A stretch of 47,780 bases of DNA from Marinilabiliales bacterium (GTDB taxonomy: Bacteria > Bacteroidota > Bacteroidia > Bacteroidales > PUMT01): positions 1 through 47,780 of the forward strand of contig REEN01000112.1 in assembly GCA_007695015.1 (NCBI GenBank), written 5' to 3'. Below, piece after piece: positions 3,104-38,802 of this stretch. Under the pieces are notes generated by a model, which saw only the letters and a program-made list of their open reading frames with translations, was not told where the DNA came from and did not search any database. A program made the position numbers and the translations under genes. The first letter of the stretch is position 1, and each line of letters begins with the position of its first letter.

Positions 3104-3153
3104 CAATGAGCAGAAAATGAGATTGTACCACCAAATTCAAATAAACAAGCTAT

Positions 3154-3945: not shown

Positions 3946-3967
3946 CACCGGTCAAAAACCCACAACC

Positions 3968-6394
3968 ATGAATAAATACTTTCAGTATTCTTTGTTAATG
4001 CCAATAATTTCACGCACTTGCTGTCTGATTATTTTTCTGATCCTCTCCTGCCCTGCCATTGCCGCTACGGAAAATATGCAGGCAGCAGGAAAGGTGTATT
4101 ATGTTTCTCCTTCAGGCTGCGACTGCAATTCGGGCGCAAAAGAAGAGCCGTTCGAAACGATCCAGTATGCAGCAGATATAATGAAACCAGGCGACAGGTG
4201 CATCATTGGAGAAGGTATATACCATGAAACTGTTGTGCCGGGGAGGTCAGGGACTGAAACTGCCCCGGTAAAATTCATGGCTGCGCCCGGCGAACGGGTG
4301 ACTGTTACGGGCGCTTCCCCGGTAACGGAATGGATCAGGCACAGTGGTAACATCTGGAAAGCACCGATGGAATGGTCGCTGGGAAAGAACAACCAGCTCT
4401 TTTTCGACGGGGAGATGATGCATGAGGCCAGGTGGCCTTCAAAACCGGCAGGGTCAGATATCATGGACCCTGCAGGAGCATATATGACAGGTGCTGAAGA
4501 TGACGGGATAATCTTTGATGGTTTTCCCGCGGCATTCGAAGATATTGACGACTGGACGGGTACCGTGATATGGGTGATGGCCCGCAGCAAATGGACGAGC
4601 TGGACCAGGCCGGTGCATGGCTATGATGCTGAAAAGAAAAAGGTGCTGCTCAGTGTTCCCGACTTCTCAGAGGGGCATATGAACCCTGCCAATCCCGAGC
4701 CCCGTGGATCCTGGCTCGGTGAACACAAAGATGAGTTTTACCTTGTAAACAATTTTGCATTCCTTGACCAGCCCGGAGAATGGTTCTATAATGAAGATGA
4801 GCAGATGTTGTACATCATCCCTCCTTCCGGTGTTGATCCGAACAGGCACCGGGTCACAGCAAAGAGGCTGATGACGGCGTTCGACCTTAGCGGTAAGTCC
4901 CATATACATATTACAGGCATTGACATACATGCAGCAACGATAAATATGGAAAATGCCCGCAACTGCATGGTAAGGGATGTAAGGGCGCGCTATATATCCC
5001 ATTCAAGGGGTGGCGAAACAAGCTATTACCTGGGAGAGAGATCGGGTATATATGTATCGGGTTCAGGCAATACCATCCGCGACAGCGAGATAGCCTTTTC
5101 AGTCGAGCATGGAATTCACCTGGGGGGTACAGGAAATTCGGTGATAAACTGCCATATTCACAATATCAGCTATTTCGGTTGTTACGGCACCCCTGTGAGG
5201 ATAACGGGCTACAAAAATATGCTAAGCCACAGTACAATACATGATGCAGGGAGGGACGGGATACAGTCCGCCGGCCTCGCCCACCTGATTAAGTACAATC
5301 ATGTTTATCATGTAGGGCTAATCGCACATGACCTTGGAATGTACTATACTGTCGGCAATGATGGCGGCGGTACCGAGATCAGGCACAACATCTTTCATGA
5401 CAACCTTTCGGAGGGTATACAATTCGGACTCTATCTAGACAATTTCACCACCAATTACGTATGCCATCATAATGTAGTCTGGGGTGTAGAGCTGGGCACC
5501 CTCAATTTCAACAGGCCCTCCGGGTTCAATATAATGGCCAATAACACTGCATTCGGAACCCTGCGAAACTGGGGGCGCTGGGAAACTGATGGCATGTACG
5601 GCAATATCGTGATCAATAACCTGATGACCGGTGAGATCGAGCCCCATCCTGATTACAGGCTTGCTGCAAACCTGACAGAGGCCGGGATTGACACGGGATC
5701 ACCCCTCGAAGCCGCTGTTTCCGATTCACGTCCGGGTATTAATGAGGGGATCTTCATCCCGGGAATTACAGGGATATATTCCGGTACCGCTCCCGATATA
5801 GGTGCATTTGAAAACGGACTGCCACCCTGGAAGGCAGGGCACGATTTTGCAAAACCGCCCTCTCCTGTCTACAGGCTCTCCGATACACCCCTGAAAAACC
5901 GGATCTATAATGCCGGTTTTGAGTTGAGCAGCTATATTGATCCGCCCGGTGGAGATCCGCTTATCGGTTGGGAACGTACTGATGCCAAAAACGCGCAGAT
6001 CCTGTCGTTATCAGGCCCCGGCACCATAATGACCGACCCTGATACCCGCGACACCTATAACGGCAATGGCGTGAAGCTATCCGGCACAGATACAGACGGG
6101 ATAATGCAGGTTGTCGAAGGCCTGGAGCCAAACACAACCTATATACTTGCCGGGTGGCTGAAGACAGGTGATGCTGCTGAGATCAGGATCGGTGTAAGGG
6201 GCTACGGAGGCGAAGATCTTTATGGTTCTGTTTCTGGGAATCTCTGGGAACACAGTGTGCTGGAATTTACTACGGGGCCTGATGTCAAGGAGGTTACTAT
6301 CGTAATTCAGAAAACAGGGCCGGGTACCGCATTTGCCGATAATATAGGACTTGTACCCTCATTTTCGTGGCTTGAGGCATCATTTGAACAGTGA
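3968..6394 (+). CDS. Secreted right-handed parallel beta-helix protein with C-terminal jelly-roll domain
   Basis: An 808-residue exported protein. An N-terminal hydrophobic segment ends near AIAA at about residue 33, consistent with signal peptidase cleavage. A Cys in LILSC leaves a lipoprotein possible, but the lipobox is poor. Residues 43-75 (YYVSPSG then PFETIQYAADIMKPGD) are the DUF1565-type start of secreted beta-helix proteins. Residues 310-580 are rich in the N-x-I/V-x-x-N/H-x-I-H rungs of a right-handed parallel beta-helix. From about 640 a carbohydrate-binding-like beta-sandwich begins (NAGFELSS ... WERTDA ... ADNIGLV). Such proteins are often polysaccharide lyases or glycosidases (GH141-like), but I see no catalytic signature that fixes the activity. 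It starts 22 bp after fetB and may be read through from it, with no functional link apparent. Confidence 0.8.
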   Translation: MNKYFQYSLLMPIISRTCCLIIFLILSCPAIAATENMQAAGKVYYVSPSGCDCNSGAKEEPFETIQYAADIMKPGDRCIIGEGIYHETVVPGRSGTETAPVKFMAAPGERVTVTGASPVTEWIRHSGNIWKAPMEWSLGKNNQLFFDGEMMHEARWPSKPAGSDIMDPAGAYMTGAEDDGIIFDGFPAAFEDIDDWTGTVIWVMARSKWTSWTRPVHGYDAEKKKVLLSVPDFSEGHMNPANPEPRGSWLGEHKDEFYLVNNFAFLDQPGEWFYNEDEQMLYIIPPSGVDPNRHRVTAKRLMTAFDLSGKSHIHITGIDIHAATINMENARNCMVRDVRARYISHSRGGETSYYLGERSGIYVSGSGNTIRDSEIAFSVEHGIHLGGTGNSVINCHIHNISYFGCYGTPVRITGYKNMLSHSTIHDAGRDGIQSAGLAHLIKYNHVYHVGLIAHDLGMYYTVGNDGGGTEIRHNIFHDNLSEGIQFGLYLDNFTTNYVCHHNVVWGVELGTLNFNRPSGFNIMANNTAFGTLRNWGRWETDGMYGNIVINNLMTGEIEPHPDYRLAANLTEAGIDTGSPLEAAVSDSRPGINEGIFIPGITGIYSGTAPDIGAFENGLPPWKAGHDFAKPPSPVYRLSDTPLKNRIYNAGFELSSYIDPPGGDPLIGWERTDAKNAQILSLSGPGTIMTDPDTRDTYNGNGVKLSGTDTDGIMQVVEGLEPNTTYILAGWLKTGDAAEIRIGVRGYGGEDLYGSVSGNLWEHSVLEFTTGPDVKEVTIVIQKTGPGTAFADNIGLVPSFSWLEASFEQ

Positions 6395-11327: not shown

Positions 11328-11636
11328 ATGGATAAGAAGCGCTTGATAGTCAGCATCGATAACCTTCCGGAAGGGGTCATGGAAGCTATCCGGAAGAAAT
11401 ACCCAAACGGGTATGGTGACTATGTAATAAAGGTCCCAAAGGGAAGTGATGATTTTTTCCACGCAATAACAGTGGATACTGAAAATGCAAGCTACCTTGT
11501 CAAGGTGAAGGTAAAGATAGATACCGTACCTGATACTGATGATAAAGAGCAGGACGACGACGATAATGTTGAAATTGATGCCAGCGATGCATCACTTTCT
11601 GAAGATCCTGAAGACTTCGATGATATTGACGATTGA
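11328..11636 (+). CDS. Small acidic hypothetical protein
   Basis: A 102-residue protein I cannot assign to a named family. Residues 1-66 form a mixed alpha/beta unit starting MDKKRLIVSIDNLPEGV with ITVDTENASYLVKVKVKI near its end. The last 35 residues are almost entirely Asp/Glu/Ser, a disordered acidic tail. No signal peptide or membrane segment, so it is likely cytoplasmic. It lies between the TonB-like and SiaC genes on the same strand, with gaps of 166 and 114 bp. The codon pattern and gene-like N-terminus support a real gene. Confidence 0.7.
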   Translation: MDKKRLIVSIDNLPEGVMEAIRKKYPNGYGDYVIKVPKGSDDFFHAITVDTENASYLVKVKVKIDTVPDTDDKEQDDDDNVEIDASDASLSEDPEDFDDIDD

Positions 11637-11750
11637 CCGGAACTGAAAAGTCCGAGGCTGATAACCTGTAAACACGATTTTTTGCTCCCGGGTTGCGATG
11701 TTGGATTAATTGTTTTATTTTTACTTATATTTCAATCTATCAGGACAGCA

Positions 11751-12122
11751 ATGGAGCCCCTTCTTATTGAAAGTACCAACCGGACACCATTAATCAGCTT
11801 ATCACCTGCCGGAAAATTCAAAATACACGGCAGGTCCATTCATGAGAATCCTGCAAAATTTTTCGAGCCTGTCATTGACTGGATGAATAACTACGTACTG
11901 AAACCTGAAGAAACAACTGTATTTGACATTAAGCTTGAATATTTCAATTCAAGCTCCCAGCGGTTCATCCTTGACGTGCTAAGGATACTGACAGACAATC
12001 TGGAGGGGAAAAAACTAATAATCAACTGGCACTACGAAAGCGGCGATGACGACCTGCTTGAGCGCGGCCAGTACTATGAATCAATCCTTAATAAAAAATT
12101 CAATCTTATTGAATTTGAATAG
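11751..12122 (+). CDS. SiaC-family (DUF1987) regulatory phosphoprotein
   Basis: A 123-residue protein from the ATG at 11751. The upstream in-frame ATG at 11682 would add a hydrophobic leader foreign to the family. Family features include the N-terminal ESTNRTPLISLSP, GRSIHENPAKFFEPVIDW and KLEYFNSSSQRFILDVL. In Pseudomonas, SiaC is phosphorylated on a Thr in this last region and, when dephosphorylated, activates the diguanylate cyclase SiaD. Here the equivalent region offers the Ser cluster NSSS (about residues 66-69). No kinase, phosphatase or cyclase gene is adjacent, so its partners are elsewhere or different. The 3' end overlaps the convergent small gene by 17 bp. Confidence 0.88.
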   Translation: MEPLLIESTNRTPLISLSPAGKFKIHGRSIHENPAKFFEPVIDWMNNYVLKPEETTVFDIKLEYFNSSSQRFILDVLRILTDNLEGKKLIINWHYESGDDDLLERGQYYESILNKKFNLIEFE

Positions 12123-12291
12123 AAAGTGACTCTCCCTCTTTCTCCTCCCTTTCAATATCCAGCGCCATTTTCCAGCTGATTCTGTGATCGTGCATTTCAA
12201 GCAATTCGCTTATACAGTCAGCACATACAATCTCACGTGCTGCGGCCTTACTGCAACGCTCGCAAGTCAGGCCTGAAATATTATTCTGCAT
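12106..12291 (-). CDS. Small CxxC zinc-knuckle-like protein
   Basis: A 61-residue protein with two CxxC pairs, CERC at residues 10-13 and CADC at 23-26, spaced as in a small zinc-binding module. A helical, charged C-terminal half follows (WKMALDIEREEKEGE). I do not recognise the family. It overlaps the 3' end of the convergent SiaC gene by 17 bp and lies 171 bp downstream of the 332-residue gene on the same strand. The paired Cys pattern makes a chance frame less likely, but this is a short gene called without comparison data. Confidence 0.5.
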   Translation of the reverse strand: MQNNISGLTCERCSKAAAREIVCADCISELLEMHDHRISWKMALDIEREEKEGESLSIQIQ

Positions 12292-12462
12292 ACCGGTTTA
12301 TTCTTTCCGGTGTTTACGGCGGAAATCAATATATTGTTTCGGGCAGGCATATGTTTCGCAGCTTTTATCCTTCACTTTTTCAACTCCCTTTCGGGGAAAA
12401 AAACGCTTTCTGCAATGTTTCGCTGCTGCAAAAGTTTCCATGGAAGCGGTAGCGGACTGCCA

Positions 12463-15165: not shown

Positions 15166-15678
15166 ATGTCAGCAATAGAATTGAAGAGCGGCGACAGAAC
15201 CGTACCGGTCAAAATAATTAAGAAGGATGGCAATGACCTTCATATAAGTCTTGGCGAAAAAAAGTACCATCTGAACCTGGTAAAAGTGGAAAATAATATT
15301 TACTCCATCCTTCTTGACGGCAAATCCTATGATGTTGAAGTGGTTGCCACTGAGATTAAAAACAGGTATTCGGCAAGATATTTATGCCATCCATACAGTA
15401 TTGAGGTGCTTGACGCCGAAACACGCTATATGAGAAGCAGGCTAAATGCCCTTGGAGAAAGCGAAGAAAATATCGTCTCCTGCCCCATGCCGGGTAAGAT
15501 AGTCAGGATCCCTGTGAATGCAGGCGATAGTGTAACGGCCGGCGAAGTCGTAATTGTTGTCGCCGCCATGAAGATGGAAAGTGAATACAAAACGGGAAAA
15601 ACCGGGGTTATCAAAGAGATACTTGTAAAAGAAGGAGATGTAATCGAGGCCAACATGCCTCTTATAATACTTGAATAG
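15166..15678 (+). CDS. Biotin carboxyl carrier protein subunit
   Basis: A 170-residue carrier. The C-terminal 65 residues are a complete biotinyl domain beginning [12 protein letters not shown] with the biotinylation site AMKM, Lys136, in [11 protein letters not shown]. The N-terminal 100 residues form a separate beta-rich domain of the kind found in stand-alone carriers of Bacteroidota acyl-CoA carboxylases and probably dock onto the partner subunits. It begins 29 bp after the biotin carboxylase stop and ends 2 bp before the carboxyltransferase start. Confidence 0.93.
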
Positions 15679-15680
15679 TT

Positions 15681-17219
15681 ATGTCAAAACTTGAAGACAA
15701 GTTCAGGGAGCTGGACAAAAGAAACAGTGAAGCCTGCATTGGCGGCGGCAAAGAAAGAATAGACAAGCAGCATCTTTGCGGCAAGCTCACAGCCAGGGAA
15801 CGTATTGACCTGCTTCTTGACAAGGGCAGTTTTGTCGAAATCGACAAAATGGTCAAACATCGTTGCACGGACTTTGAAATGGACAAAAACAAGATCGCCG
15901 GCGATGGTGTTGTTTCCGGGTACGGCAAAATAGACGGCCGTCTTGTGTGCGTATTTGCCCAGGACTTTACAGTATTCGGCGGCACACTGAGCCGTGCAAA
16001 CGCCGACAAGATGGTGAAGATAATGGATATGGCCATGAAAATGGGTGCACCCCTGATCGGTCTTAATGATTCCGGTGGCGCAAGGATACAGGAAGGGGTC
16101 CAGAGCCTCGCCGGTTATGCAGATATCTTTCACCGTAACGTCCGTGCATCAGGGGTCATACCTCAGATATCAGCAATACTGGGACCATGTGCCGGCGGCG
16201 CAGTATACTCTCCGGCCCTTACCGATTTTATCATTATGACCAGGGAGAACAGCTATATGTTCGTTACCGGGCCTGATGTTATAAAGGCTGTGACTCATGA
16301 AGAGGTGACCAAGGAAGAACTGGGAGGGGCAATGACACATAACTCGAAGAGCGGAGTTGCTCACCTGATTGGAGAGAATGATGAAAATGCCATGATGATG
16401 ATCCGGGAACTGACAGGCTTCCTCCCCTCAAACAATATGGAAGATCCGCCTTTCAGGCCATTTACCGATGATACAGACCGTGAGGACGAGAACCTGCAGA
16501 CACTGGTGCCCCCTGACCCAAACAAGCCTTATGATATGATGGAGATCATCAGCTCGGTAGTTGATGACAACAATTTTTTCGAGATAATGCCTCATTACGC
16601 AAAGAACATGATAACCGGGTTTGCCAGACTGGCAGGTAAAACAGTTGGTATAGTGGCAAACCAGCCTGCTTTCCTGGCGGGCGTTCTCGATATAAACTCA
16701 TCGGTAAAGGCCGCCAGGTTTGTAAGGTTCTGCGATGCATTCAACATACCAATAATTACTTTGATGGATGTGCCTGGATTCCTGCCCGGTACAACGCAGG
16801 AGTTCGGAGGTATAATTAAACACGGGGCAAAGCTGCTTTATGCATACTCCGAGGCTACTGTGCCCAAAATAACACTTATAACCAGAAAGGCATACGGTGG
16901 TGCATATTGTGTAATGGCAAGCAAACATATAGGAGCAGATATCAACCTTGCTTATCCTACCGCCGAGATTGCGGTAATGGGACCTGAGGGGGCGGTAAAC
17001 ATTATATTCAGGCACAAGATCTCAGATGAAGAAAAAGCAACGGCAGTCGCCGGTTACAGGGAGGCCTTTGCTAATCCTTACAAGGCTGCAGAACTCGGAT
17101 ATATTGACGAGGTGATCTATCCGCGGGAAACAAGGAAAAAGCTTATCACTGCCATGGAGATATGCCAGAACAAGAGCGAATCAGGTCCGCGCCGGAAGCA
17201 CGGGAACATCCCATTGTGA
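15681..17219 (+). CDS. Acyl-CoA carboxylase carboxyltransferase subunit (PccB/MmdA-like)
   Basis: A 512-residue carboxyltransferase with two crotonase-like halves. N-half: [19 protein letters not shown] and [17 protein letters not shown]-half: [34 protein letters not shown] and [12 protein letters not shown]. These are the oxyanion and CoA-binding regions of PccB and MmdA. It transfers CO2 between carboxybiotin and propionyl-CoA, or removes it from methylmalonyl-CoA in the fermentation direction. The absence of membrane decarboxylase subunits (MmdB-type) in this operon favours carboxylase activity, but sequence alone does not decide. It ends 3 bp from the convergent serine hydrolase gene. Confidence 0.92.
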
Positions 17220-25178: not shown

Positions 25179-26339
25179 ATGGGGCAACGACTTCTGGTCT
25201 GCAATGCTATTTCCTGCAACAATAATAATGCCGGAAAGCCAATTGATATACTGATCTCTGATGGCTTAATTCAATCTGTCCATCCGGCAGGAACGATTTC
25301 TTGTGATTGCAGCTCCCTGGATGCCGGAGGATCCATTGCCATGCCGGGCATGATCGATATTCATATTCATGGCGCCGGTGGTTCAGACAGCCTTGATGGA
25401 ACAAGAGAAAGCCTTGAAACCATATCCCGGACACTTGCTAAAACAGGCACCACCTCATTCCTCACCACGATGGTTGTCACCCCGGGAGAAGGTAACCGGC
25501 ACCTTAAAAGAGCCGCTGATTGTACCGGTTCTGATCTTGGAGGAGCTGAGCTTCTGGGCATATATATTGAAGGGCCATTTATCAGCATGGAAAAGAGAGG
25601 TGGTATTCTTCCCGGATGCATTACCGCCCCCTCTCCCGCCATTCTGGATGAGATCCTTGAACTTGCAGGCGATGCAATGAAGGTCATGTGCGTGGCCCCG
25701 GAATTGGAAGGAATTGATGAAATTATCAAAACCCTGATATATAGCGGAATAAAAGTTTCATTCGGCCATTCTGATGCAGGATATGATGAGACGGTTAAGG
25801 GATTCGGTATGGGTATCAGCCACGTGACCCACCTTTTCAACACGATGAGACCGCTTCACCACAGGAATCCGGGCCCGCTTGCAGCGATATTTGAAAACAG
25901 CAGCATTACTGCCGAACTGATAGGAGATTCATACCATGTACACCCCAGCCTCATTAATATGGCATACAGGCTCAAAACATCAAGGGGACTTGTATGTATA
26001 ACCGACGGTATAAGAAGCACGGGGCTGCCTGACGGAAAATACATGTACAATAACAAGGAGTATATATCTGAAGGTGGACTGGCGAGGTACACTGACGGTA
26101 CATTTATCGGCTCGACCATGAGCCTCAAAGAAATAACCTCCAACTTCATGAAATTCACGGGCTGCTCCCTGAATGAGGCCATCGACACAGTAACGATCAA
26201 CCCGGCCAGAATAGCAGGGGTTGATAACAGGAAAGGATCCCTGGAACCGGGTAAGGATGCTGACATTCTGCTGGTAACTCCTTCTCTTGAAATCAAAAAA
26301 ACCATAATTGCAGGCAGAATTACTGACAATGATCAATAA
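25179..26339 (+). CDS. nagA: N-acetylglucosamine-6-phosphate deacetylase
   Basis: A 386-residue amidohydrolase that removes acetate from GlcNAc-6-phosphate. Motifs: PGMIDIHIHGAGG (metal HxH), YIEGPFIS (Glu ligand), FGHSDAGYDETVKG, VTHLFNTMRPLHHRNPG and CITDGIRSTG with the catalytic Asp. Length is normal. It is followed 14 bp downstream by a sodium:solute symporter, suggesting a sugar uptake and catabolism operon. The next step, deamination, may be supplied by the NagB-LmbE fusion at 35033, though that protein has an altered active site. Confidence 0.95.
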   Translation: MGQRLLVCNAISCNNNNAGKPIDILISDGLIQSVHPAGTISCDCSSLDAGGSIAMPGMIDIHIHGAGGSDSLDGTRESLETISRTLAKTGTTSFLTTMVVTPGEGNRHLKRAADCTGSDLGGAELLGIYIEGPFISMEKRGGILPGCITAPSPAILDEILELAGDAMKVMCVAPELEGIDEIIKTLIYSGIKVSFGHSDAGYDETVKGFGMGISHVTHLFNTMRPLHHRNPGPLAAIFENSSITAELIGDSYHVHPSLINMAYRLKTSRGLVCITDGIRSTGLPDGKYMYNNKEYISEGGLARYTDGTFIGSTMSLKEITSNFMKFTGCSLNEAIDTVTINPARIAGVDNRKGSLEPGKDADILLVTPSLEIKKTIIAGRITDNDQ

Positions 26340-26353
26340 AAAATCATAATCCT

Positions 26354-27832
26354 ATGCATTTTACGTGGCTGGACACCATCATACTCATTGCATATATTGC
26401 AGGTATTACATGGTTTGGTATCAGAATTGCCGGAAAGCAGGTCTCTTCCGGGGACTATTTCCTGGGTGGCAGGAAGATTCCCTGGTGGGCTGTCTGCTTC
26501 GCCATTGTAGCAACCGAAACCAGCACCCTTACTTTCATAAGTATTCCCGGACTGGCATACCTAACAAACATGAACTTCCTGCAACTTACAATTGGATACT
26601 TCATAGGAAGGGTGATCGTTGCATGGATAATCCTGCCATCCTATTTCAAAGGTGAACTGGGCACTGCATATACTTTCCTGGCCAACCGCTTCGGGACGCC
26701 AATGAAAAACCTCGCATCCGGTGTTTTTATGCTAACCCGGCTTGCCGCCGACGGTGTCAGGTTGTTCGCAACAGCCATACCGCTGGCGCTGATACTCCAG
26801 GGGACATTTCTTGCAGCCAATGTAACGGATGAATGGATCTACATTGGATCTATTCTGCTAATCGCAATTGTCTCACTAAGCTATACATATGTCGGGGGAC
26901 TCAGGGCGGTTGTATGGATGGATGTGGTGCAGCTGTTTATCTATTTCGCCGGAGCAACTGCAGCCATTATTATTGTCGGAGGTGATACCGGTGGACTTAA
27001 GGAGGGGATCGCCATGGCCGCAGAAGCAGGAAAATTTGAAGTTTTCAACTTCTCTTTTGAAGGGGGAATCAGGGGCTTCTTTTCAACTCCCTATACATTT
27101 ATAGGAAGCATTCTGGGTGGAGCATTCCTCTCAATGGCCTCGCATGGCATAGATCAGCTGATCGTGCAGCGCCTGCTTGCTGCCGGATCATTGCCTGCAA
27201 GCCGCAAAGCGCTGGTCTGGACAGGAGGTATAATCATTCTGCAGTTTGCACTCTTTCTTTTTCTTGGAAGCCTTCTGTTTGTCTTTTACGGTGGAGCTGA
27301 GATTGTTTCTGATGAAGTTTTTCCCATGTTCATCATAGAAGAGATGCCTGCCGGACTGAGCGGACTGATTATTGCTGCGCTCTTTGCTGCTGCCATGTCA
27401 ACACTGTCCAGCTCAATTACAGCTCTTGGATCTGCCACGATGTTTGACTATGTTGTTCCGTATTACAAAAAACTGGGCAAAACCAACGAGATGGCCATTT
27501 CAAGGGTAATAACGCTCATCTGGTGCATTCTGCTTGTAGGATCGGCAATATTTTTCATGCAGAGCTCAGAAATTGTCGTTGAGCTTGCACTCTCCATTGC
27601 TTCTTTTACCTACGGCGGGCTGCTGGGAACATTTTTCCTGGGGGTACTATTTAAAAGGACTGGCATAAATGATGCCATACCCGCTTTTATTGCGGGCATA
27701 GCTATCATGGTATATATTATTCTGTCTACCTCTGTGGCATGGACCTGGTATACGCTTATAGGTGCATCCGTAACGGTCATTACGGGCTGGCTCTTATCGC
27801 TCAGGTCTTCATTCCCCCGCAAACGCTTATAA
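26354..27832 (+). CDS. Sodium:solute symporter (SSS family)
   Basis: A 492-residue transporter with about 13 hydrophobic helices. Typical SSS features are the N-terminal GDYFLGGRKIPWWAV, ATETSTLTFISIPG, and MASHGIDQLIVQRLLAA in the middle. The placement right after nagA, in the same operon, suggests uptake of an amino sugar, sialic acid or a related sugar, but SSS specificity cannot be read from the sequence. Its last 32 bp overlap the end of the convergent fabG gene. Confidence 0.92.
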   Translation: MHFTWLDTIILIAYIAGITWFGIRIAGKQVSSGDYFLGGRKIPWWAVCFAIVATETSTLTFISIPGLAYLTNMNFLQLTIGYFIGRVIVAWIILPSYFKGELGTAYTFLANRFGTPMKNLASGVFMLTRLAADGVRLFATAIPLALILQGTFLAANVTDEWIYIGSILLIAIVSLSYTYVGGLRAVVWMDVVQLFIYFAGATAAIIIVGGDTGGLKEGIAMAAEAGKFEVFNFSFEGGIRGFFSTPYTFIGSILGGAFLSMASHGIDQLIVQRLLAAGSLPASRKALVWTGGIIILQFALFLFLGSLLFVFYGGAEIVSDEVFPMFIIEEMPAGLSGLIIAALFAAAMSTLSSSITALGSATMFDYVVPYYKKLGKTNEMAISRVITLIWCILLVGSAIFFMQSSEIVVELALSIASFTYGGLLGTFFLGVLFKRTGINDAIPAFIAGIAIMVYIILSTSVAWTWYTLIGASVTVITGWLLSLRSSFPRKRL

Positions 27833-30670: not shown

Positions 30671-33600
30671 TCAGGTAATCAGATCAGGGATTTTTATGTT
30701 TCCGGCAATCTCAGTAATATCCCGGCTGAATAATTTGTAAAGCACAGGAACCACCAGGAGCGTCAGAAATGTTGAAGCCAGCAGCCCACCTATTATTGTC
30801 CACCCCATAGGTGCCCATAACGTTCCTCCTATCAGTGTAAGTGGCAACAGGCCTCCGACAGTGGTCACAGATGTCAGAATAATTGGCAGGAACCTGGTTT
30901 TTCCGGCTTCAATAAGAGCCGTATCCATATCAAGTCCCTCCTCCCTCAGCCTGTTGGTGAAATCAACAAGTAAAATTGAATTGTTAATGACGATGCCTAT
31001 CAGGCTTATCAACCCGATAAATGCGGTAAAGCTGAAGGTATACCCTGTAAGCAGGAGCATCCAGACCGACCCTATGACTGCAAGCGGGATTGCCGAAAAT
31101 ATTATAAGGGGCTGATAAAATGACCTGAACTGGAAAACAAGGACACCGAAAATTGAAATTACTGTAATCAGAACAGCTCTGCCCATACCACCAAAAGTTT
31201 CATCCCTGCTCTCCAGCTCTCCGGCTATATAGTAACCGTATCCTTCCGGAAAAGAATAATTATCGAGTTCATCCAGCAATGGCACCATTATATCGTCAAG
31301 GTTGTAGCCGGAACGTACATCGGCAATTACCGTTGCATTCCTGAGCATGTTGAACCTTGAAATCAGGCTGGGTTCAGTTAAAAACTCGACCGCTGCAAGC
31401 TGCCGGACCGGTATCTGGTTACCATTTAGAGAGGTGACAAATACCTTTTCGATATCGCCGACTTGCACCATTTCACCCTCAGGCAGCCTCATAACAATTT
31501 CATACTCTTTTCCGTCCTTGTCCCTGAACCTGGACACTTCAATACCGTTGACTGCCATCCTGATTGCCCTGTCAATGTCGTGTACCGGAACTCCCAAAAT
31601 CCCGGCTTTCTCCCTGTTTATTATAAACCTCAGGTCCGTCTGCGATTTATCAAGTTGATTCTCCACATTGACCGCGCCTCTCTTTGATGCAACCATCTTT
31701 TCCACTTCCCTCGAAATACTCCGTAACACATCTACCCGCTCCCCGGTAATATAAATAACAACAGGTGCCTGCATGGGCACTCCCTGCTCAAATTCATGCA
31801 GGGTTATTTCAGCTCCGGGATATCTCCCGAATACATCTCTAAGCCAGTCAACCATCCGGGGAAACTCCCTGGGATCATATTCGTATAACTCTGCGTAGAT
31901 CTCTGCAAAGTTCCTTGCGTGCTGCCGTGGGAAATGGTTGTAGTAGATTCGTGGATTACCTTTTCCTATATTGCTTGCATACAGTTTTATATCTGGCATT
32001 GTATCAAGTATGGCTTCAACCCATTTCACAGCCCGGTCAGTCCGCTCCAGGCTGCTTCCCTCCGGCATTTCAACCCGTATCATAAACTGCGGGGTTTCAG
32101 CTTTTGGAAAGAAACTGATGCCAACATACCTGAAGGCCCATGCCGAAGCTCCGAGTATTAACAAAACCACAAGCAGGGTCATGATCTCCCATTTCAGCAC
32201 AAATTGGAGTGTTTTCCGGTATGGTCCCCTGACAACACGGTTGATAAGCCGCTCAAATAGCCTCCATGAGGTCTGCTTCTGTCCGGATATACCTGATTTG
32301 AAGATCCTGCTGGCCAGAAACGGTGAAAGAGTAAGAGTTATAAACAGCGAGACACTAAGCGTTGCTATAATAGTTACAGGCAGGCTCCTGATAAAATCAC
32401 CGGCCTTGTCGGAAAGCATAATCAGCGGAATAAATGCCAGAATGGTTGTAAGGGTAGCAGAGGCTACCGGCCACCCGATCTCAGCCACGGCAGCAATAGC
32501 GGCATCCCTGGCTCCATACCCGTTCTTAAGGTAACGGTTCAGGTTCTCGACCATAACTATTGAATTATCAACAAGTAATCCTAGTGCAACAACCAGGGCC
32601 GCAATGGAAACCTGCTCGAGAGTAAAACCTGCCAGATCGACTATTCCAAGCCCGATTACTATCGAGAGTGGTATTGCAAGAATGACTATGAGGGATGACT
32701 TGATCCCTATGGCAAAAAACACCAGCACGCCTACCAGTAAAATCCCCTGGTATAAATTTATGAGAAATCCGTTTATTCTCCTCTCTACAGTATCAGACTG
32801 ATCAAATACCTTCATCAGTTGGGCATTATGTCCCAGCCTGCTGCCGTATTCAAGAATCTGCCTGTCTATCTCGTCGGTTATCCTGAAAATATTGATATTC
32901 TCCTTCTGCTGTACCGAAAGAAATATTGCCCTGCTCCCCTTGTATCGTGCAAGATAGTTGTTGTCTTCATATTCGAAATCGACATCTGCGATATTTTCAA
33001 GATAAACGAGCTGTCCCATATAAGAGCCAACCACCGTACGTTTCAACTCTTCCGGATCGCTGTATGAACCACTAGTTCTCACCCCGAATGAACGATCTCC
33101 CAGGGAAACCGTACCCCCGGGAATATTGGCATTATTACTCTGAATGGCACCGACAACCTGGCCTATCGAAATATTCATTGCAGCCATCTTTTCAGTATGA
33201 ATTGACACTCTCAGCTGCAGCGACGGAACAGCATGTATTTCGACCCTCTTAATCCCCGGAATAGTTTCAATTCGCCGTTTCAGTCCCACAGCCAGCCTGT
33301 CAAGTTCAGAAAATTCAGCGGTTTCAGAAATAAGTGCAAGCTGCATTATTGCAACATCCGTGCTGGTATATTCCAGCACTTCAAAATGGTGGAGATCATC
33401 GGGGAGCTCACCCTCAATCGCATTTATGGCAGAAACCATTTCATTGTACTTCTCACGGGCATCTGTGCCGTGCTCAAACTCAACACTTATTGTGGCCAAT
33501 CCGTCCCGGAGAGTAGTATTTATCTTCCTGATATCATCTAATTCGTTCAAAGCTTCTTCTACCGGCAAAGCAATGAGGTTTTCCAGGTCGGCCGGGCCGG

Positions 33601-33760
33601 CACCCGGGTATATAAAGACCGCCATACCCCCGGAGATGTAAACTGCCGGATTTTCCATCCGCGGCATCGTAAAAAAAGAATAGGCACCACCTGCCAGCAT
33701 CAGGACAAAAATGATAATTGTAAGCTGATAATTATCTATGAAAAAACGCGTTATTCGCAT
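30671..33760 (-). CDS. RND efflux pump inner-membrane subunit (AcrB-like)
   Basis: A 1029-residue RND permease with the standard 12-helix, two-porter-loop layout: N-terminal helix (TIIIFVLMLAGGAYSFF), YPGAGPADLENL, and a TM4 segment VALGLLVDNSIVMVENLNR. In TM4 the proton-relay pair seen as Asp-Asp in AcrB is Asp398-Asn399 here; single-Asp variants are common in this branch. It exports drugs or metabolites using the proton gradient. The membrane-fusion gene lies 37 bp upstream. The TolC gene is separated by an opposite-strand gene (35033-37360). Confidence 0.93.
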   Translation of the reverse strand: MRITRFFIDNYQLTIIIFVLMLAGGAYSFFTMPRMENPAVYISGGMAVFIYPGAGPADLENLIALPVEEALNELDDIRKINTTLRDGLATISVEFEHGTDAREKYNEMVSAINAIEGELPDDLHHFEVLEYTSTDVAIMQLALISETAEFSELDRLAVGLKRRIETIPGIKRVEIHAVPSLQLRVSIHTEKMAAMNISIGQVVGAIQSNNANIPGGTVSLGDRSFGVRTSGSYSDPEELKRTVVGSYMGQLVYLENIADVDFEYEDNNYLARYKGSRAIFLSVQQKENINIFRITDEIDRQILEYGSRLGHNAQLMKVFDQSDTVERRINGFLINLYQGILLVGVLVFFAIGIKSSLIVILAIPLSIVIGLGIVDLAGFTLEQVSIAALVVALGLLVDNSIVMVENLNRYLKNGYGARDAAIAAVAEIGWPVASATLTTILAFIPLIMLSDKAGDFIRSLPVTIIATLSVSLFITLTLSPFLASRIFKSGISGQKQTSWRLFERLINRVVRGPYRKTLQFVLKWEIMTLLVVLLILGASAWAFRYVGISFFPKAETPQFMIRVEMPEGSSLERTDRAVKWVEAILDTMPDIKLYASNIGKGNPRIYYNHFPRQHARNFAEIYAELYEYDPREFPRMVDWLRDVFGRYPGAEITLHEFEQGVPMQAPVVIYITGERVDVLRSISREVEKMVASKRGAVNVENQLDKSQTDLRFIINREKAGILGVPVHDIDRAIRMAVNGIEVSRFRDKDGKEYEIVMRLPEGEMVQVGDIEKVFVTSLNGNQIPVRQLAAVEFLTEPSLISRFNMLRNATVIADVRSGYNLDDIMVPLLDELDNYSFPEGYGYYIAGELESRDETFGGMGRAVLITVISIFGVLVFQFRSFYQPLIIFSAIPLAVIGSVWMLLLTGYTFSFTAFIGLISLIGIVINNSILLVDFTNRLREEGLDMDTALIEAGKTRFLPIILTSVTTVGGLLPLTLIGGTLWAPMGWTIIGGLLASTFLTLLVVPVLYKLFSRDITEIAGNIKIPDLIT

Positions 33761-33797
33761 TTACCTTAACAATTGATTAAATTTATGCAATTCCCTC

Positions 33798-34829
33798 TTA
33801 TTCGTATATGACTACCCGCTGTCCGTCGGATACAAAGGCGGCTCCTTCCCTGATTATTGTGTCACCCGGACTAACACCGCCGTTAACAAGCAGTTTATTC
33901 CCGGCTATAACTTCTATCGTGACTCTTTCCCTTACAGCAGTATTGCGTGTAAACCTGAATACAGTACCTTCCCTGCCGCTGGCCTCAAGAAGGGCTTCCG
34001 CAGGAATTTCTGTGTATTCATATGTACGGGAGGTAATTAAAGAGGCTTTGCCAATAAAGCCGGTCAGCAGCCTTTTATCATCGGATGAGACGGCCAGGCT
34101 TACTTCGAAAGTACCGGTATGAGGATTCGCCATCCCGGCAATTTCATAAATATGTGCATGAAATATATCGCCCGGGTAAGCATCAAAAGTGACCTCTGCA
34201 TTATCACCTTCGTCAATATCCACTATATCCCTGTCAGTTACCGGAACTCTTAAAAGCCATTGGTCTTGCGATGATGCAAAAAGAAGAACCGGATGTCCCG
34301 GCGCAATGATCTCATCCTCTTCGGCCATAACTTTCATGATCTTACCGTCTGAAGGAGCTTTTATTATCGAGTGTTCAAGATTGAACTGTGCAATAACTTT
34401 TGCAGACTCGGCAATTTCAAGAGCTGTCCGGGCATTCTGATAATTTTCAAGGGTTGCTGCATTTTCTTCATACAGATTCTTCACTCTCTCAAAATCGCGT
34501 AGAGCTTTTTCATAGCCAAGCTCAGCCTGCCTCATATGAGAGCTTATCTCCGACATATTCAATGAGGCCATAATATCACCCCTATTTACAACCTGCCCTT
34601 CTCTTACTGAAATTAAATTTATTATACCTCCTGTTTTAAAGCTTAACTTCACCTCGGAGATTGGAGTCAGCCGACCGCTGGAATTAACTCTTTTGTTATA
34701 TAATACCTCCCTGGCTACAGAAATCGTAACATTTGCAGTAAGTTCTTCAGCATCATGGTCGTCCTTAGGGACACATGCACAAAGCATGGCAACCGCGAAT
34801 AAACTAATCTTCAATGGTTTAATTTTCAT
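33798..34829 (-). CDS. RND periplasmic adaptor (membrane-fusion lipoprotein)
   Basis: About 343 residues from the ATG at 34829. The frame runs on to an ATG at 35000, but the added 57 residues do not resemble the family. Starting at MKIKPLKISLFAVAMLCACVP gives a proper lipoprotein signal with LCAC. The mature part has the HlyD order: first barrel/lipoyl strand (VSVREGQVVNRGDIMASL), helical hairpin (AELGYEKALRDFERVKNLYE), second lipoyl strand (SDGKIMKVMAEEDEIIAPG) and beta-barrel (VTFDAYPGDIFHAHIYEIAG). It links the RND pump to a TolC channel in the periplasm. Confidence 0.9.
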   Translation of the reverse strand: MKIKPLKISLFAVAMLCACVPKDDHDAEELTANVTISVAREVLYNKRVNSSGRLTPISEVKLSFKTGGIINLISVREGQVVNRGDIMASLNMSEISSHMRQAELGYEKALRDFERVKNLYEENAATLENYQNARTALEIAESAKVIAQFNLEHSIIKAPSDGKIMKVMAEEDEIIAPGHPVLLFASSQDQWLLRVPVTDRDIVDIDEGDNAEVTFDAYPGDIFHAHIYEIAGMANPHTGTFEVSLAVSSDDKRLLTGFIGKASLITSRTYEYTEIPAEALLEASGREGTVFRFTRNTAVRERVTIEVIAGNKLLVNGGVSPGDTIIREGAAFVSDGQRVVIYE

Positions 34830-34925
34830 AATCACAACAAGGGTGAGAGTTAATTCAAAACATCCGGCTATTAAATATATAAAATTAATTATTCCCGCAG
34901 ACTTATCGACTACCCTGAAATAAGA

Positions 34926-34950
34926 CTTATTAAAAAAATATTTTATTAAG
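34926..34950. promoter_or_regulatory. Inverted repeat between divergent adaptor and NagB-LmbE genes
   Basis: CTTATTAAAA and TTTTATTAAG form 10-bp arms with one mismatch around a 5-bp spacer, about midway between the two divergent starts (34829 and 35033). It could be an operator serving either promoter. AT-richness weakens the case. Confidence 0.35.
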
Positions 34951-35032
34951 TGCCTGTAATTTTTATAATTCTGACTAAAAATGTGTAATTTCATCCGCAT
35001 AAAACTTCTCTAACGTTTTAATTTGTACTGTT

Positions 35033-37360
35033 ATGCAAAAATATGAGCTCTCATCAGTCGAACAGACATTTTCCAAGCAGGCCGGAATCAGGAATATCAC
35101 CACAAAGATTCCTTACATTACTGTTGATAATTTCCCTAAACTTGGTTTGTTCACGGCTCTGCGCTTCATCGAATGGATATCTGAAAACCCGGAGGGTGTT
35201 ATAAGCCTCCCCACTGGTAAAACACCGGAGTATTTCATAAAGTGGACAAAAAGGATTATTGATAACTGGGAGGAGAGCCAGATAAAAGAGCTAAGGAAAT
35301 CGCACGGTCTTACCGCAAAGAAAAAACCTGGGTTCGATAAACTGCATTTTGTACAGATAGATGAGTTCTATCCAATAAGATCAACTCAGCACAATAGCTT
35401 CTACCATTATGTTAATGAATACTATATCAAGGGATTTGGACTGAACCCTGATAGGGCGCTCCTGATAAACTCAGACACTATCCCGCTTCCCGGAGGCAAG
35501 CATTTCACTGAGATCTTTCCCGATAATATTGTGGACCTTTCATTGAGATACAAGGAGGCCAGGACCGCCTTTGAAGCCATGCAGCAAAAGGCTGTGTTTG
35601 CTATTGATGACTGGTGTACCAGGTACGAAAAGGCTATAAAGGATAAAGGAGGTATTGGCTTTTTCCTGGGAGGGATTGGTCCGGACGGACATATAGCATT
35701 CAACACACGTGGTTCCGACCACCATTCAACCACAAGGCTTACAGCTACTAATTTTGAGACCCAGGCAGTTGCCGCCGGTGACCTTGGTGGTATCGAGGTG
35801 TCAAGGAACAGGCTGGTAATAACTGTCGGACTCCGAACCATTACGCAAAATCCCGATGCCGTAGCAATCATCTTTGCTGCCGGAGAGGCCAAGGCCCCGG
35901 TGGTTAAGGATGCTCTTGAAAAGGATAAATCGAATATATACCCCTCGACAGCCCTTCACGATCTCAGGAATTCCCGCTTCTACCTTACCACTGGCGCAGC
36001 TTCTATGCTGGAAGATAAGGTTGAGCTCTTTTACAGGACAGGCGGCTGGACCCATGAGAAAACCGAAAGAGCTGTAATAGATCTGTGCAAAAAGCTTGGA
36101 CGCTACGGCCATCATTTAACGGTTGATGATCTTAAAAAAGACAAGTATTGCAGCCAGATCCCCGGCCTTAACAACAATACTGTCAAAACCGTTATCGGAT
36201 CTATAAACGACAAGATAAGCAGAGGCATGGATAACGAGAACAACCAGGTTTATTATCATACCGGACCTCACCATGATGACATAATGCTCGGCATATTGCC
36301 CCACATACACAGGCTTCTCAGAAACGAAAACAATACAGCATATTTCTCAGTACTAACCTCAGGATTTACCGCTGTTACAAACAGTTTCCTTCGCGATGCC
36401 CTCGAAGACACCAAACAATTCCTTAACGAAGGCCTTATCCAGATGATTGAGTATCCTGACTTTTTCGAGATGGGGTATGGCCTGAAATGGGACAAGGATG
36501 TATATCACTTCCTGAACAAGGTAGCTTCGGGTGAACCATTTGAAAGGAGAAGGGGACTGGCTCACAGGATTGTAAGGTCGCTTGTTGTAATATACAAGCT
36601 AAAGGACAGAGAGGAGTTGCGTAATTGCATAGATGACATCCTCTCAATCCTCCGCAGAAGTTATGATGGAGAAAAGAATCACCCTGACATACAGACGCTT
36701 AAGGGCATGATCAGGGAGTTTGAAGAAGAACTGGTTTGGGCCCATTTCGGAGTACAGGTTAAAAATGTTCATCATCTCAGGCTTGGTTTCTATACAGGAG
36801 ATGTGTTTACCGCCCAGCCAGAAAGAGACAGGGATGTTAAACCGATTCTTGAAAAGCTCAAAAAGATCAATCCCTCGGTTATCAGCCTGGCATTTGATCC
36901 CGAGGGAAGCGGCCCCGACACCCACTATAAAGTACTCCAGGCGATTGCTGATGCCGTAAGATTGTGGGAAAAGGAAACTGACCTGTCTGCCCTGAGAATA
37001 TGGGGATACAGGAATGTCTGGTACAAATTCCACCCGGCAGAGGCTAATGTAATTGTTCCTGTATCGCTGAATGCAATGGCGGTTCTGGAAGATTCATTCA
37101 CCAACTGCTATCTCAGCCAGGTTGACGCATCATTTCCAAGCTATCAGCACGATGGCAAGTTCAGTGAACTGACAAAAAACACCTGGGTTGACCAGCTGAA
37201 GACAATACAGCTGCTGCTGGGCAAGAACTGGTTTTACCAGAGCCCGAGTCCGCGCATCAGGTCAACACATGGAATGCTCTATTTTAAAGAGATGACCGTC
37301 AGTGAATTCCTTGAAAGCGCAAGAGAACTGGAAAAATCAATGGAAGGCATAACTTTGTAA
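35033..37360 (+). CDS. NagB-like sugar-phosphate deaminase fused to an LmbE/PIG-L-type domain
   Basis: A 775-residue two-domain protein. Residues 30-340 form a glucosamine-6-phosphate deaminase-like domain: phosphate loop LPTGKTP (59-65), VQIDEFYP with Asp110, and GIGPDGHIAFN with Asp218 and His220. The Glu that completes the E. coli triad (Glu148, in NEP) is Thr225 here (NTR). Residues 400-700 form an LmbE-like domain with zinc motif PHHDD (412-416) and a later His631 in GPDTHYK. Bacteroidota have shorter NagB-LmbE fusions; this one has a large insert (460-570). The predicted job is deamination or isomerisation of an amino-sugar phosphate coupled to deacetylation, but the substrate may differ because of the Glu replacement. 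It sits between efflux genes on the opposite strand. Confidence 0.85.
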   Translation: MQKYELSSVEQTFSKQAGIRNITTKIPYITVDNFPKLGLFTALRFIEWISENPEGVISLPTGKTPEYFIKWTKRIIDNWEESQIKELRKSHGLTAKKKPGFDKLHFVQIDEFYPIRSTQHNSFYHYVNEYYIKGFGLNPDRALLINSDTIPLPGGKHFTEIFPDNIVDLSLRYKEARTAFEAMQQKAVFAIDDWCTRYEKAIKDKGGIGFFLGGIGPDGHIAFNTRGSDHHSTTRLTATNFETQAVAAGDLGGIEVSRNRLVITVGLRTITQNPDAVAIIFAAGEAKAPVVKDALEKDKSNIYPSTALHDLRNSRFYLTTGAASMLEDKVELFYRTGGWTHEKTERAVIDLCKKLGRYGHHLTVDDLKKDKYCSQIPGLNNNTVKTVIGSINDKISRGMDNENNQVYYHTGPHHDDIMLGILPHIHRLLRNENNTAYFSVLTSGFTAVTNSFLRDALEDTKQFLNEGLIQMIEYPDFFEMGYGLKWDKDVYHFLNKVASGEPFERRRGLAHRIVRSLVVIYKLKDREELRNCIDDILSILRRSYDGEKNHPDIQTLKGMIREFEEELVWAHFGVQVKNVHHLRLGFYTGDVFTAQPERDRDVKPILEKLKKINPSVISLAFDPEGSGPDTHYKVLQAIADAVRLWEKETDLSALRIWGYRNVWYKFHPAEANVIVPVSLNAMAVLEDSFTNCYLSQVDASFPSYQHDGKFSELTKNTWVDQLKTIQLLLGKNWFYQSPSPRIRSTHGMLYFKEMTVSEFLESARELEKSMEGITL

Positions 37361-37365
37361 GGACC

Positions 37366-38802
37366 TCATTCAAAAACATACAGGGCAGCGACCCTTTCAT
37401 ATTCAGCGTAACCGGAGAAGAATTCGTACCTGCAGATAGCCAGGTTTATTTCTGCATTTGTCATACCTGTGCGTGCATCAATATACTCAATCAGCTGCGC
37501 CTCGCCGGCTGCATATCTTTTTTCAGTTATCCGGAATGCTGAAGTGGCAGATTTCAGTCGTGCTTCGGCAGCATCAACAGCCTTCGCCGATGCCTCGAGA
37601 TCATACCATGCGTTTATAACCTGGAGGTTTAGCTTCTCTTCTGTCTCCCTGTGGATCAACCCGGCTATATTACTCCGTATCTTTGCCTGCTGGATTGAAG
37701 CACGGTTCTGGAATCCTTCAAAAAGAGGCCAGCTGAGAACAATTGATGCCAGCATGAAATCATCATCCCTGCCAAATGAATAGGTAGTACCCAGCAGGCC
37801 ATACTCGACGACAGCTGTTAATCTCGGATACCTGTTCGATTGCACAAGCCTTTCATAATCAGAGGCCAGATCTATCATCCGCCCCGTTCGTGCAAGTTCC
37901 TCACGGTCTTCTGCACCTGACATCCTTTCTGCCTGAGGTTTTATAACTAAGTCCCTGTAATATAGCGCACTCATCTCTATAGGGGTGTCAGCAGAACGAT
38001 TTAAAAGGAAATTGAACCATGCAGCAGCAGTTTTCCGCTTACCTGCTGCATCGGCACGTTGCTGCAGGGCTGCAGATATCTCTGCCTGCGATCTGTATAA
38101 GTAATCATCAGTCACCATGTCGTTTGCAGCGAGCAGACCGGTAACGCGCAGGTTCTCATTAAGAAGTTCAATGGTTTCTTCAATTATCCTCTCAACTTTG
38201 CCCGATTTCAGGTAATTGAAATAGGCTTTTTTGATCTCGGCAACAAGAGCTCTTCTGTATATTTCGACATCAATATGCCCGATTTCCGTTTCATGCTCCC
38301 TGATCCTTCGGTTATACCATATTTCAGGATTAACCAGCGGCTGAACGACCCTGAATTTGGTCTCCTGTTCTCTTGGTCTGTAAAAATAGAAATATTCGTT
38401 ATCGATGTCCGGAAAATCCGCTGTACCGGTAAGCATATTCAATGTTGAATAAACCGGATTCAGGAGGTCTCCAACCGGGAGCTCTATAACCCGTCCACCC
38501 CTGGCCAGGGTATACCGCATATTGAAGCTCAGCGCAGGATAGAAAAGTCCCCTTGCTTCATTCAGAAGCTCGAGGCTCAATTTATAGTTCTCCCTTTTTT
38601 GCTGCAGGGCAAGATTGTTTTCCAGGCCGTGCCTTATGTAATAATCAAGAATATCTGCATCATCAGCTCCTGCATGCTCATTATGCCCGGCATAGTACTC
38701 ATCAGACAGAGGCCGGCAATCCACCCCGATACTATTCCCGGAAGTGACAGCAATATTTAAACTAAAAATCAATATAATAAACCCTAACAAACTTAATAAC
38801 AT
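37366..38802 (-). CDS. TolC-family outer-membrane efflux protein
   Basis: A 478-residue protein with an N-terminal signal segment (residues 2-18). Two long helical repeats are visible: NNLALQQKRENYKLSLELLNEARGLFYP ending in strand-forming residues (about 55-100), and the second-half counterpart VNAGEARLKSATSAF-like helix near 420. The pattern NEARGLFYPALSF is typical of TolC hairpins. It forms the exit duct through the periplasm and outer membrane, presumably for the RND pump and adaptor downstream on the same strand, although the NagB-LmbE gene now separates them. It ends 5 bp from that convergent gene. Confidence 0.9.
   Translation of the reverse strand: MLLSLLGFIILIFSLNIAVTSGNSIGVDCRPLSDEYYAGHNEHAGADDADILDYYIRHGLENNLALQQKRENYKLSLELLNEARGLFYPALSFNMRYTLARGGRVIELPVGDLLNPVYSTLNMLTGTADFPDIDNEYFYFYRPREQETKFRVVQPLVNPEIWYNRRIREHETEIGHIDVEIYRRALVAEIKKAYFNYLKSGKVERIIEETIELLNENLRVTGLLAANDMVTDDYLYRSQAEISAALQQRADAAGKRKTAAAWFNFLLNRSADTPIEMSALYYRDLVIKPQAERMSGAEDREELARTGRMIDLASDYERLVQSNRYPRLTAVVEYGLLGTTYSFGRDDDFMLASIVLSWPLFEGFQNRASIQQAKIRSNIAGLIHRETEEKLNLQVINAWYDLEASAKAVDAAEARLKSATSAFRITEKRYAAGEAQLIEYIDARTGMTNAEINLAICRYEFFSGYAEYERVAALYVFE

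Follow-up and report, generated by a model that had tools for sequence, protein, structure and literature searches.

Domain architecture of the long NagB-LmbE fusion

The window analysed here is the whole of a 47,780-nucleotide stretch of DNA from Marinilabiliales bacterium (GCA_007695015.1, contig REEN01000112.1, positions 1 to 47,780, forward strand). It contains a gene that fuses a NagB-like domain, of the glucosamine-6-phosphate (GlcN-6-P) deaminase fold, to an LmbE/PIG-L deacetylase-fold domain. The gene starts with ATG and forms one open frame. An earlier note on this DNA had placed a NagB-like/LmbE fusion here, and the open reading frame, the homologues and the modelled folds bear it out.

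35033..37360, + strand: long-form NagB-LmbE fusion gene, 775 amino acids, stop included (open reading frame list, homologues, NCBIfam)
35108..36034, + strand: N-terminal glucosamine-6-phosphate-deaminase-fold domain, residues 26-334 (AlphaFold2 model, VIA-align)
36218..37315, + strand: C-terminal LmbE/PIG-L deacetylase-fold domain, residues 396-761 (structure comparison, sub-threshold Pfam PIG-L match)

Near-full-length homologues of this long fusion share 61-86% identity with the window protein, and more distant members of the phylum about 48%. The named relatives are titled Bacteroidota, except three titled Cloacimonadota or Chlorobiota. NagB-PIG-L fusions are already known; the long form is a distinct variant, below the cut-offs of the families that it matches. 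Its top NCBIfam match is the ‘glucosamine-6-phosphate deaminase-like’ fusion PRK02122/NF002557, scoring 183.6 bits where the cut-off is 384. The nagB model TIGR00502 scores 84.2 bits against 236.9, and Pfam PIG-L (PF02585) scores 20.2 bits, below its gathering score of 28.2. As the protein falls below every curated Pfam and NCBIfam cut-off encountered, automated annotation may miss or misname the long fusion. A plasmid search yielded seven records at 22-30% identity, those with annotation being glucosamine-6-phosphate deaminases. In a literature search that mostly could not reach subscription journals, no paper was recognised as describing the long fusion and no assay of it was found.

The AlphaFold2 model, built from 48 aligned sequences, has a mean predicted local distance difference test score of 85.8 and a predicted TM score of 0.84. 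In VIA-align comparisons its N-terminal domain has the deaminase fold, matching Bacillus subtilis NagB (2bkv) with Z 29.4 and a root-mean-square deviation of 1.9 over 241 residues; 6-phosphogluconolactonases score lower (Z 18.5-22.6). The C-terminal domain has the LmbE fold, with model residues 404-755 aligned to BshB (6p2t) at Z 19.8, and with Z 18.8 for N,N'-diacetylchitobiose deacetylase (3wl3) and 14.7 for MshB. The diacetylchitobiose deacetylases are also the top PDB matches of the domain’s profile, but at an E value of 1.5e-3 only. This domain is longer than its solved relatives, about 366 residues against 203-224 aligned ones.

A decayed or frameshifted gene is ruled out by the single open frame and by the low non-synonymous against saturated synonymous change in both domains. 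Non-synonymous divergence is 0.05-0.15; saturation of synonymous change meant that a ratio of the two was obtained for just one domain of one pair. Promoter-like sites (5 against 4.1 expected) and terminator-like sites (5 against 2.8 expected, standard deviation 1.7) are little above chance.

The deaminase-fold active site and its missing glutamate

Residue equivalences are taken from an alignment to Escherichia coli NagB (MG1655). Conservation is counted over 105 distinct long fusions: 84 that are 61-86% identical to the window protein, itself included, and 21 from 20 further loci, of which 18 are at about 48% identity and three at about 64%. Identical copies are excluded, as are three fragments of long forms (L011, L014, L025).

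35204..35227, + strand: phosphate loop SLPTGKTP, residues 58-65, with Lys63 (105/105) at the position of E. coli Gly43
35360..35362, + strand: Asp110, equivalent to E. coli NagB Asp72, invariant in 105/105
35672..35707, + strand: catalytic motif GIGPDGHIAFNT, residues 214-225, with Asp218 (= Asp141), His220 (= His143) and Thr225 (= Glu148), by alignment
35891..35893, + strand: Lys287, equivalent to E. coli NagB Lys208, invariant in 105/105

Asp110, Asp218, His220 and Lys287 are present in every long fusion. The E. coli-type Asp141-His143-Glu148 triad is nevertheless incomplete in all 105, with Asp and His retained and Glu absent: the Glu148 column holds 65 Thr, 31 Val, 8 Ile and 1 Cys. The missing Glu is not a product of chance or misalignment, because the motif GGIGPDGHI[AG]FN[TVIC] is gap-free and the column is acidic in none of the 105. 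Misalignment at Thr225 is thereby ruled out, and the mixture of residues likewise rules out Thr as a fixed catalytic replacement. The earlier note had numbered the retained residues and the Glu148-to-Thr225 change correctly; on its question of whether Thr225 is clade-wide, the loss of Glu holds throughout the clade, but Thr itself is not fixed.

Four further differences had escaped that note. The position of Lys160 is occupied by Thr, Ile or Met and that of Arg172 by Gly, Ser, Thr or other residues, whereas Lys63 and, in the C-terminal domain, Glu624 are invariant departures. Arg172 of E. coli NagB is a contact to the substrate phosphate. According to a passage in PMC4008608, Glu148 and Lys160 form a pair when E. 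coli NagB is in the T state; with both gone, the E. coli allosteric switch is left without its two partners.

Glu148 is retained in canonical NagBs (11/11), in E. coli AgaI and in 26 of 27 shorter PRK02122 fusions. Asp141, by contrast, is not universal in active deaminases, being Asn in the alignment of the solved B. subtilis enzyme, so that the loss of Glu is the rarer change. A nearby acidic residue, Asp229, is weakened as a putative stand-in for Glu148 by its variability: it is present in 73 of the 84 closer long forms and replaced by His in the other 11, and 8 of the second set of 21 have Ser or His.

The deacetylase-fold zinc site

36266..36280, + strand: zinc motif 1, PHHDD, residues 412-416 (His413, Asp415, Asp416), by alignment
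36896..36931, + strand: zinc motif 2, DPEGSGPDTHYK, residues 622-633 (Glu624, His631), by alignment

Pro412, His413, Asp415, Asp416 and His631 are each found in 105/105 long fusions, so the H-x-D-D motif and the zinc His of the second LmbE motif are both intact, in agreement with the earlier note. We take the metal and zinc roles of these residues to be those of their counterparts in MshB and Dac. Glu624 is likewise invariant in the long form; the short fusions have His at that place (27/27, in DPHGTH), presumably the first His of LmbE motif 2, MshB His144.

Distribution of nagA and NagB-like proteins

25179..26339, + strand: nagA, N-acetylglucosamine-6-phosphate (GlcNAc-6-P) deacetylase, likely pathway partner (NCBIfam TIGR00221, 312 bits, cut-off 226)

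The phyletic sample comprises 218 genomes of the window’s phylum, each at least 95% complete, of which 23 carry the long fusion. In two carriers (G086, G227) the gene is in two pieces, and the long-form loci of G086, G121, G215 and G227 are not among the loci examined below. A nagA call requires at least 150 bits with TIGR00221, so that seven genomes at 150-225 bits, below the cut-off, count as positive. On this basis nagA occurs in 9 of the 23 genomes that have a long form, in 22 of the 87 that have a short form and in 6 of the 7 that have canonical NagB only, and all 37 nagA genomes hold canonical NagB, a short fusion or a long fusion. No nagA was found in 14 of the 23 long-fusion carriers, and a search of the 23 with the window’s own NagA gave the same 14 absences.

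Canonical NagB accompanies the long fusion in 11 of the 23 carriers, among the matches listed. Four of the long-fusion carriers with nagA have no canonical NagB, and only in the window’s genome and G054 is the long fusion the sole NagB-like protein; in the other two, G115 and G233, another such protein lies near nagA. Both nagA and MurQ are present in the window’s genome, which is 98.5% complete, and searches of it returned no canonical NagB, no other nagB-model match, no 6-phosphogluconolactonase match, no short fusion and no AgaS above cut-off. As it has nagA and no other NagB-like match, the fusion is the only found candidate for its NagB step. AgaS exceeds its cut-off in none of the 23 carriers.

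Eight of the 14 nagA-less carriers also have no canonical NagB. In five of them the nagB model finds only the long fusion (G171, G211), or besides it only a lactonase-type protein (G074, G150, G227); of the rest, G058 and G086 have a weak, unassigned nagB-model match and G070 has another NagB-like protein. The additional NagB-like proteins of G115, G233 and G070 (L189, L190 and L191) are about 250 amino acids long and carry the motif GIGENGHLAFNDP, with Asp at the Glu148 position. In G115 and G233 this protein (L189, L190) lies near a weak nagA, and the two genes are possibly another amino-sugar-phosphate isomerase pair.

These data bear on the earlier note’s argument that a nagA so near the fusion points to a different amino sugar for the latter. 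The proximity is real, with nagA at 3.2-5.2 kb from the fusion in five of seven same-genus loci (the other two contigs end too early), yet nagA is absent from 14 of 23 carriers, and in the window’s genome the fusion is the only candidate found for the step after NagA; the argument does not hold.

Comparison with short fusions and other known systems

The PRK02122/NF002557 short fusions (about 650 amino acids) have the same domain order as the long form, share its LmbE zinc residues in 26 of 27 cases and have a similar lid region. Neighbours of the same kinds (GH20, GH18, MurQ, ROK) occur in 9 of 18 short-fusion loci, 20 having been fetched and L172 and L176 left out by the open-reading-frame filter. 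Identity between the two forms is 27%, for the one short member compared. Their active sites differ reciprocally: short fusions keep Glu148 (26/27) and have no Asp141 (27/27), and the long form is the reverse.

In a tree of the NagB domain, made with the Glu148 column removed, long forms make up one clade (100/100, stem length 4.2), short forms another (97/90) and canonical NagBs, including that of E. coli, a third (100/99); branches are long, and the order among the three clades is not settled by the tree. The earlier note had wanted the protein separated from the shorter fusions; the two forms fall into different clades and differ at Glu148. Among the 218 genomes, 23 have the long form, 87 the short form and none both (Fisher p 5e-6, ignoring shared ancestry, which inflates all statistics of this analysis).

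Some short fusions show decay of one half. L018 (487-2430, -), L019 (1039-3039, +) and L020 (490-2484, -) have lost the catalytic His and kept every zinc residue, and their genomes carry canonical NagB. In L026 (1051-3006, +) the deaminase residues are kept and three of the four zinc-site residues lost; its genome also holds a long form and canonical NagB. With L049 set aside, deaminase decay is found in 3 of 7 short fusions with canonical NagB and in 0 of 19 without it, as judged among the matches listed (p 0.013). Such a pattern would be expected of a bifunctional deacetylase-deaminase with one redundant half, and it directly supports this function for the short form; by analogy it lends support to a bifunctional long form as well. 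A ‘NagB’ from the chitin locus of Flavobacterium johnsoniae, Fjoh_4557, is possibly also a short fusion, in our estimate; according to passages of PMC5127042, chitin use was unaffected when the gene was deleted, and the protein could not be expressed. It is the closest experimental record that the searches turned up.

Canonical NagB (TIGR00502; E. coli, B. subtilis) shares its fold with the long form (Z 28-29) and has the Asp72, Asp141, His143 and Lys208 equivalents in common with it; the long form differs in having no equivalent of Glu148, Lys160 or Arg172 and in its extra fused domain. The LmbE/PIG-L deacetylases (N,N'-diacetylchitobiose deacetylase, BshB, MshB) share the fold of the C-terminal domain (Z 14.6-19.8), the H-x-D-D motif, as aligned to Dac, and the second-motif His; the long form is only 13-17% identical to them, with PHHDD for HPDD, Glu624 for the first motif-2 His and NagB fused. 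NagA (TIGR00221) catalyses the GlcNAc-6-P deacetylation proposed below for the long form. NagA belongs to the amidohydrolase family, whose fold is unrelated to that of LmbE, and the long form would be a non-orthologous replacement. 6-Phosphogluconolactonase (TIGR01198) has the NagB superfamily fold and, as in the long form, an Asp-His pair without Glu148; it is a single domain with a lower fold score, and the FN[TVI]xGS motif of the long form is NagB-like.

Gene neighbourhoods

Genes around 80 + 20 long-form loci were clustered, and selected neighbours scanned with Pfam and NCBIfam; one of three ‘NagB’ loci among the 80 is a short fusion (L049). An amino-sugar family lies within 6 kb in 41/80 and 10/20 long-form loci against 1/20 control loci (Fisher 1e-4), a contrast that is overstated, as the reference families were chosen from the same loci and the controls come from second-set carriers only.

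The distance between the fusion and MurQ is 0.2 kb in L112 and about 4 kb in L113 (378 and 380 bits, cut-off 302); in L117 MurQ, identified by similarity, is also near the fusion. By coordinates it is within 5 kb of the fusion in at least 6 of the 23 carrier genomes, and it is found somewhere in 20 of them. One or more of these three loci also hold an AmpG-like permease, a GlcNAc-kinase-like BadF protein, an L-Ala-D/L-Glu-epimerase-like protein, an amidase and a NagX-like protein. The epimerase-like protein is at 11334-12461 (+) in L112; in L113 the BadF protein, the AmpG-like permease and MurQ lie near the fusion at 2883-5346 and 15428-16348. Judged by predicted gene families, the three neighbourhoods point to peptidoglycan recycling. 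GH94 and GH18 occur together near the fusion in L124, L125, L127 and L128 (by Pfam for L125, by similarity for the rest), an arrangement that would point to chitin use; canonical NagB is also near in L125 and L127. Other loci have ROK proteins, NagP-like permeases or GH20 near the fusion. Among the 80 loci, further neighbours are GH109 (5 loci), GalE (4), nucleotidyltransferase (4) and APH kinase (3), and in four loci GH109 stands together with GalE. SusC/SusD neighbours were recognised by eye only.

Proposed function and alternative readings

The reading favoured here, tentatively and at a little under even confidence, is that the long fusion serves amino-sugar recycling with two activities, those of a GlcNAc-6-P deacetylase and of a GlcN-6-P deaminase/isomerase. 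It would be a two-step enzyme of amino-sugar phosphates, probably cytoplasmic. GlcNAc-6-P would arise through MurQ from muramic acid phosphate or through a GlcNAc kinase from chitin and glycan sugars; the C-terminal zinc LmbE domain would remove its acetyl group; and the N-terminal domain, to which the product may be handed over, would convert GlcN-6-P to fructose-6-phosphate and ammonia. The N-terminal site would rely on Asp110 and a dyad of Asp218 and His220, without a third carboxylate, and the phosphate-loop Lys63 would stand in for the lost Arg172 contact. In sum, a single chain would do the work of both NagA and NagB and would have no allosteric switch of the E. coli type.

The deacetylase half, backed by its fold and zinc site, by the gene context and by the missing NagA, is the firmer one. 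For the deaminase half, which is uncertain, the fold, four invariant active-site residues and the missing NagB of the window’s genome stand against the lost Glu, Arg and Lys. The earlier note’s scheme of deacetylation followed by isomerisation or deamination accordingly stands in part: it fits the folds, the invariant residues and the neighbourhoods, and leaves the reaction of the N-terminal domain in doubt. If the favoured reading is right, a gap in amino-sugar and peptidoglycan recycling is closed for carriers without a recognisable NagA, and the long fusion would put to the test whether the textbook NagB triad needs its third residue at all.

Several observations weigh against this reading. 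Glu148 is replaced in every long fusion though canonical NagBs, AgaI and most short fusions keep it, Arg172 and Lys160 are lost with it, and the 6-phosphogluconolactonases, which are hydrolases, are likewise without Glu148 (Phe in 4/4). In the zinc site, the first motif-2 His is replaced by Glu624. No amino-sugar neighbour was seen in 49 of 100 loci (some contigs end early), MurQ is missing from three carriers, and only MurQ and GalE pass NCBIfam curated cut-offs, the AmpG, NagK, NagP, NagX and epimerase matches being below them. Long and short fusions occur together in G022 and L049, outside the 218 genomes. Finally, no decay of the long-form N-site is seen in 11 proteins of 9 sampled genomes that have canonical NagB, nor in L010, L063 and L066, which have NagB in genome or locus; a redundant deaminase might have degenerated in such genomes, as it did in some short forms (p 0.04 for the difference, small numbers).

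An undecayed N-site beside NagB counts against the N-terminal domain as a plain NagB duplicate. A bolder and rather unlikely proposal is that the Glu-less NagB-fold site, with its Asp-His dyad and phosphate-loop Lys, represents a new mechanism in a phylum-wide family, acting on the product of its own deacetylase to turn GlcNAc-6-P, supplied by MurQ or from chitin, into hexose phosphate within a single chain and so replacing NagA and NagB. Were this true, an invariant N-site beside canonical NagB would mean more than a repeat of the NagB reaction.

It is doubtful that the protein is a deacetylase only, its LmbE domain acting on GlcNAc-6-P and its NagB fold just binding a 6-phosphosugar, for holding or sensing, with GlcN-6-P passing to a separate NagB or to cell-wall synthesis. 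The loss of Glu148, Lys160 and Arg172 would suit such a protein, as would the absence of nagA from 14 carriers and the canonical NagB of 11. The fusion also has a canonical NagB close by in three loci, at 0.1 to 0.3 kb in L125 and L063 and at about 2.5 kb in L127. Four residues invariant in 105/105 are more than mere binding should call for, however, and the window’s genome and G054 have nagA with no other NagB-like protein found.

We give the same low credence to a different amino sugar phosphate, such as N-acetylgalactosamine-6-phosphate, N-acetylmannosamine-6-phosphate or an intermediate of muramic or lactone type, or to another second step in place of deamination, either isomerisation or lactone-type hydrolysis at the Glu-less site. 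The Glu-less Asp-His pair of the 6-phosphogluconolactonases, together with the lack of a lactonase-model match in the window’s genome, fits this idea, and so does an N-site retained even beside canonical NagB. The GH109, GalE, nucleotidyltransferase and APH kinase neighbours lean the same way, and to judge by the four loci with both GH109 and GalE a different amino sugar is possible. Against it, MurQ and the GH18/GH94 and GlcNAc-kinase-like neighbours would all supply GlcNAc-6-P or GlcNAc, the short fusions look like phyletic substitutes for the long form, and GlcN-6-P deaminases are the nearest folds (best Z 29.4, against 22.6 for lactonases).

An ordinary GlcN-6-P deaminase with another residue in the Glu role and a secondary deacetylase half is very unlikely: the fusion is the sole NagB-like protein found in the window’s nagA-bearing genome and Asp229 could substitute, but Asp229 is not conserved and the zinc site never varies among the 105. 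Least credible is a pseudoenzyme or a regulator, the latter having been raised in the earlier note; the lost triad Glu and allosteric residues would allow it, but Pfam and NCBIfam scans of the fusion show no DNA-binding domain, both active sites are otherwise invariant (105/105) and nothing was found in support of a regulatory role.

Further features of the window and related loci

26354..27832, + strand: SSF-family sodium/solute symporter directly 3' of nagA, possible amino-sugar uptake (Pfam SSF, E 1.8e-28)

A gene of the same cluster and of similar length follows nagA in four of the five same-genus loci that show nagA. The N-acetylmuramic acid transporter of Tannerella forsythia is also assigned to the sodium symporter superfamily in a passage of PMC5790795, so the window symporter could import N-acetylmuramic acid or GlcNAc.

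Within the window the fusion gene sits inside an RND efflux cluster (30671-38802) in opposite orientation, flanked by RND and membrane-fusion genes on one side and a TolC-like gene on the other, all of them identified by eye. Five of seven related loci have an XRE-like regulator directly upstream instead, which suggests that the efflux genes were acquired around the fusion. Elsewhere, a creatininase-like gene directly precedes the long fusion in L042, L043, L045, L046, L050 and L053, and some of these six loci add URO-D-like or DmpA-like genes; the creatininase and DmpA names were assigned by eye, and the URO-D name comes from Pfam for L041 alone.

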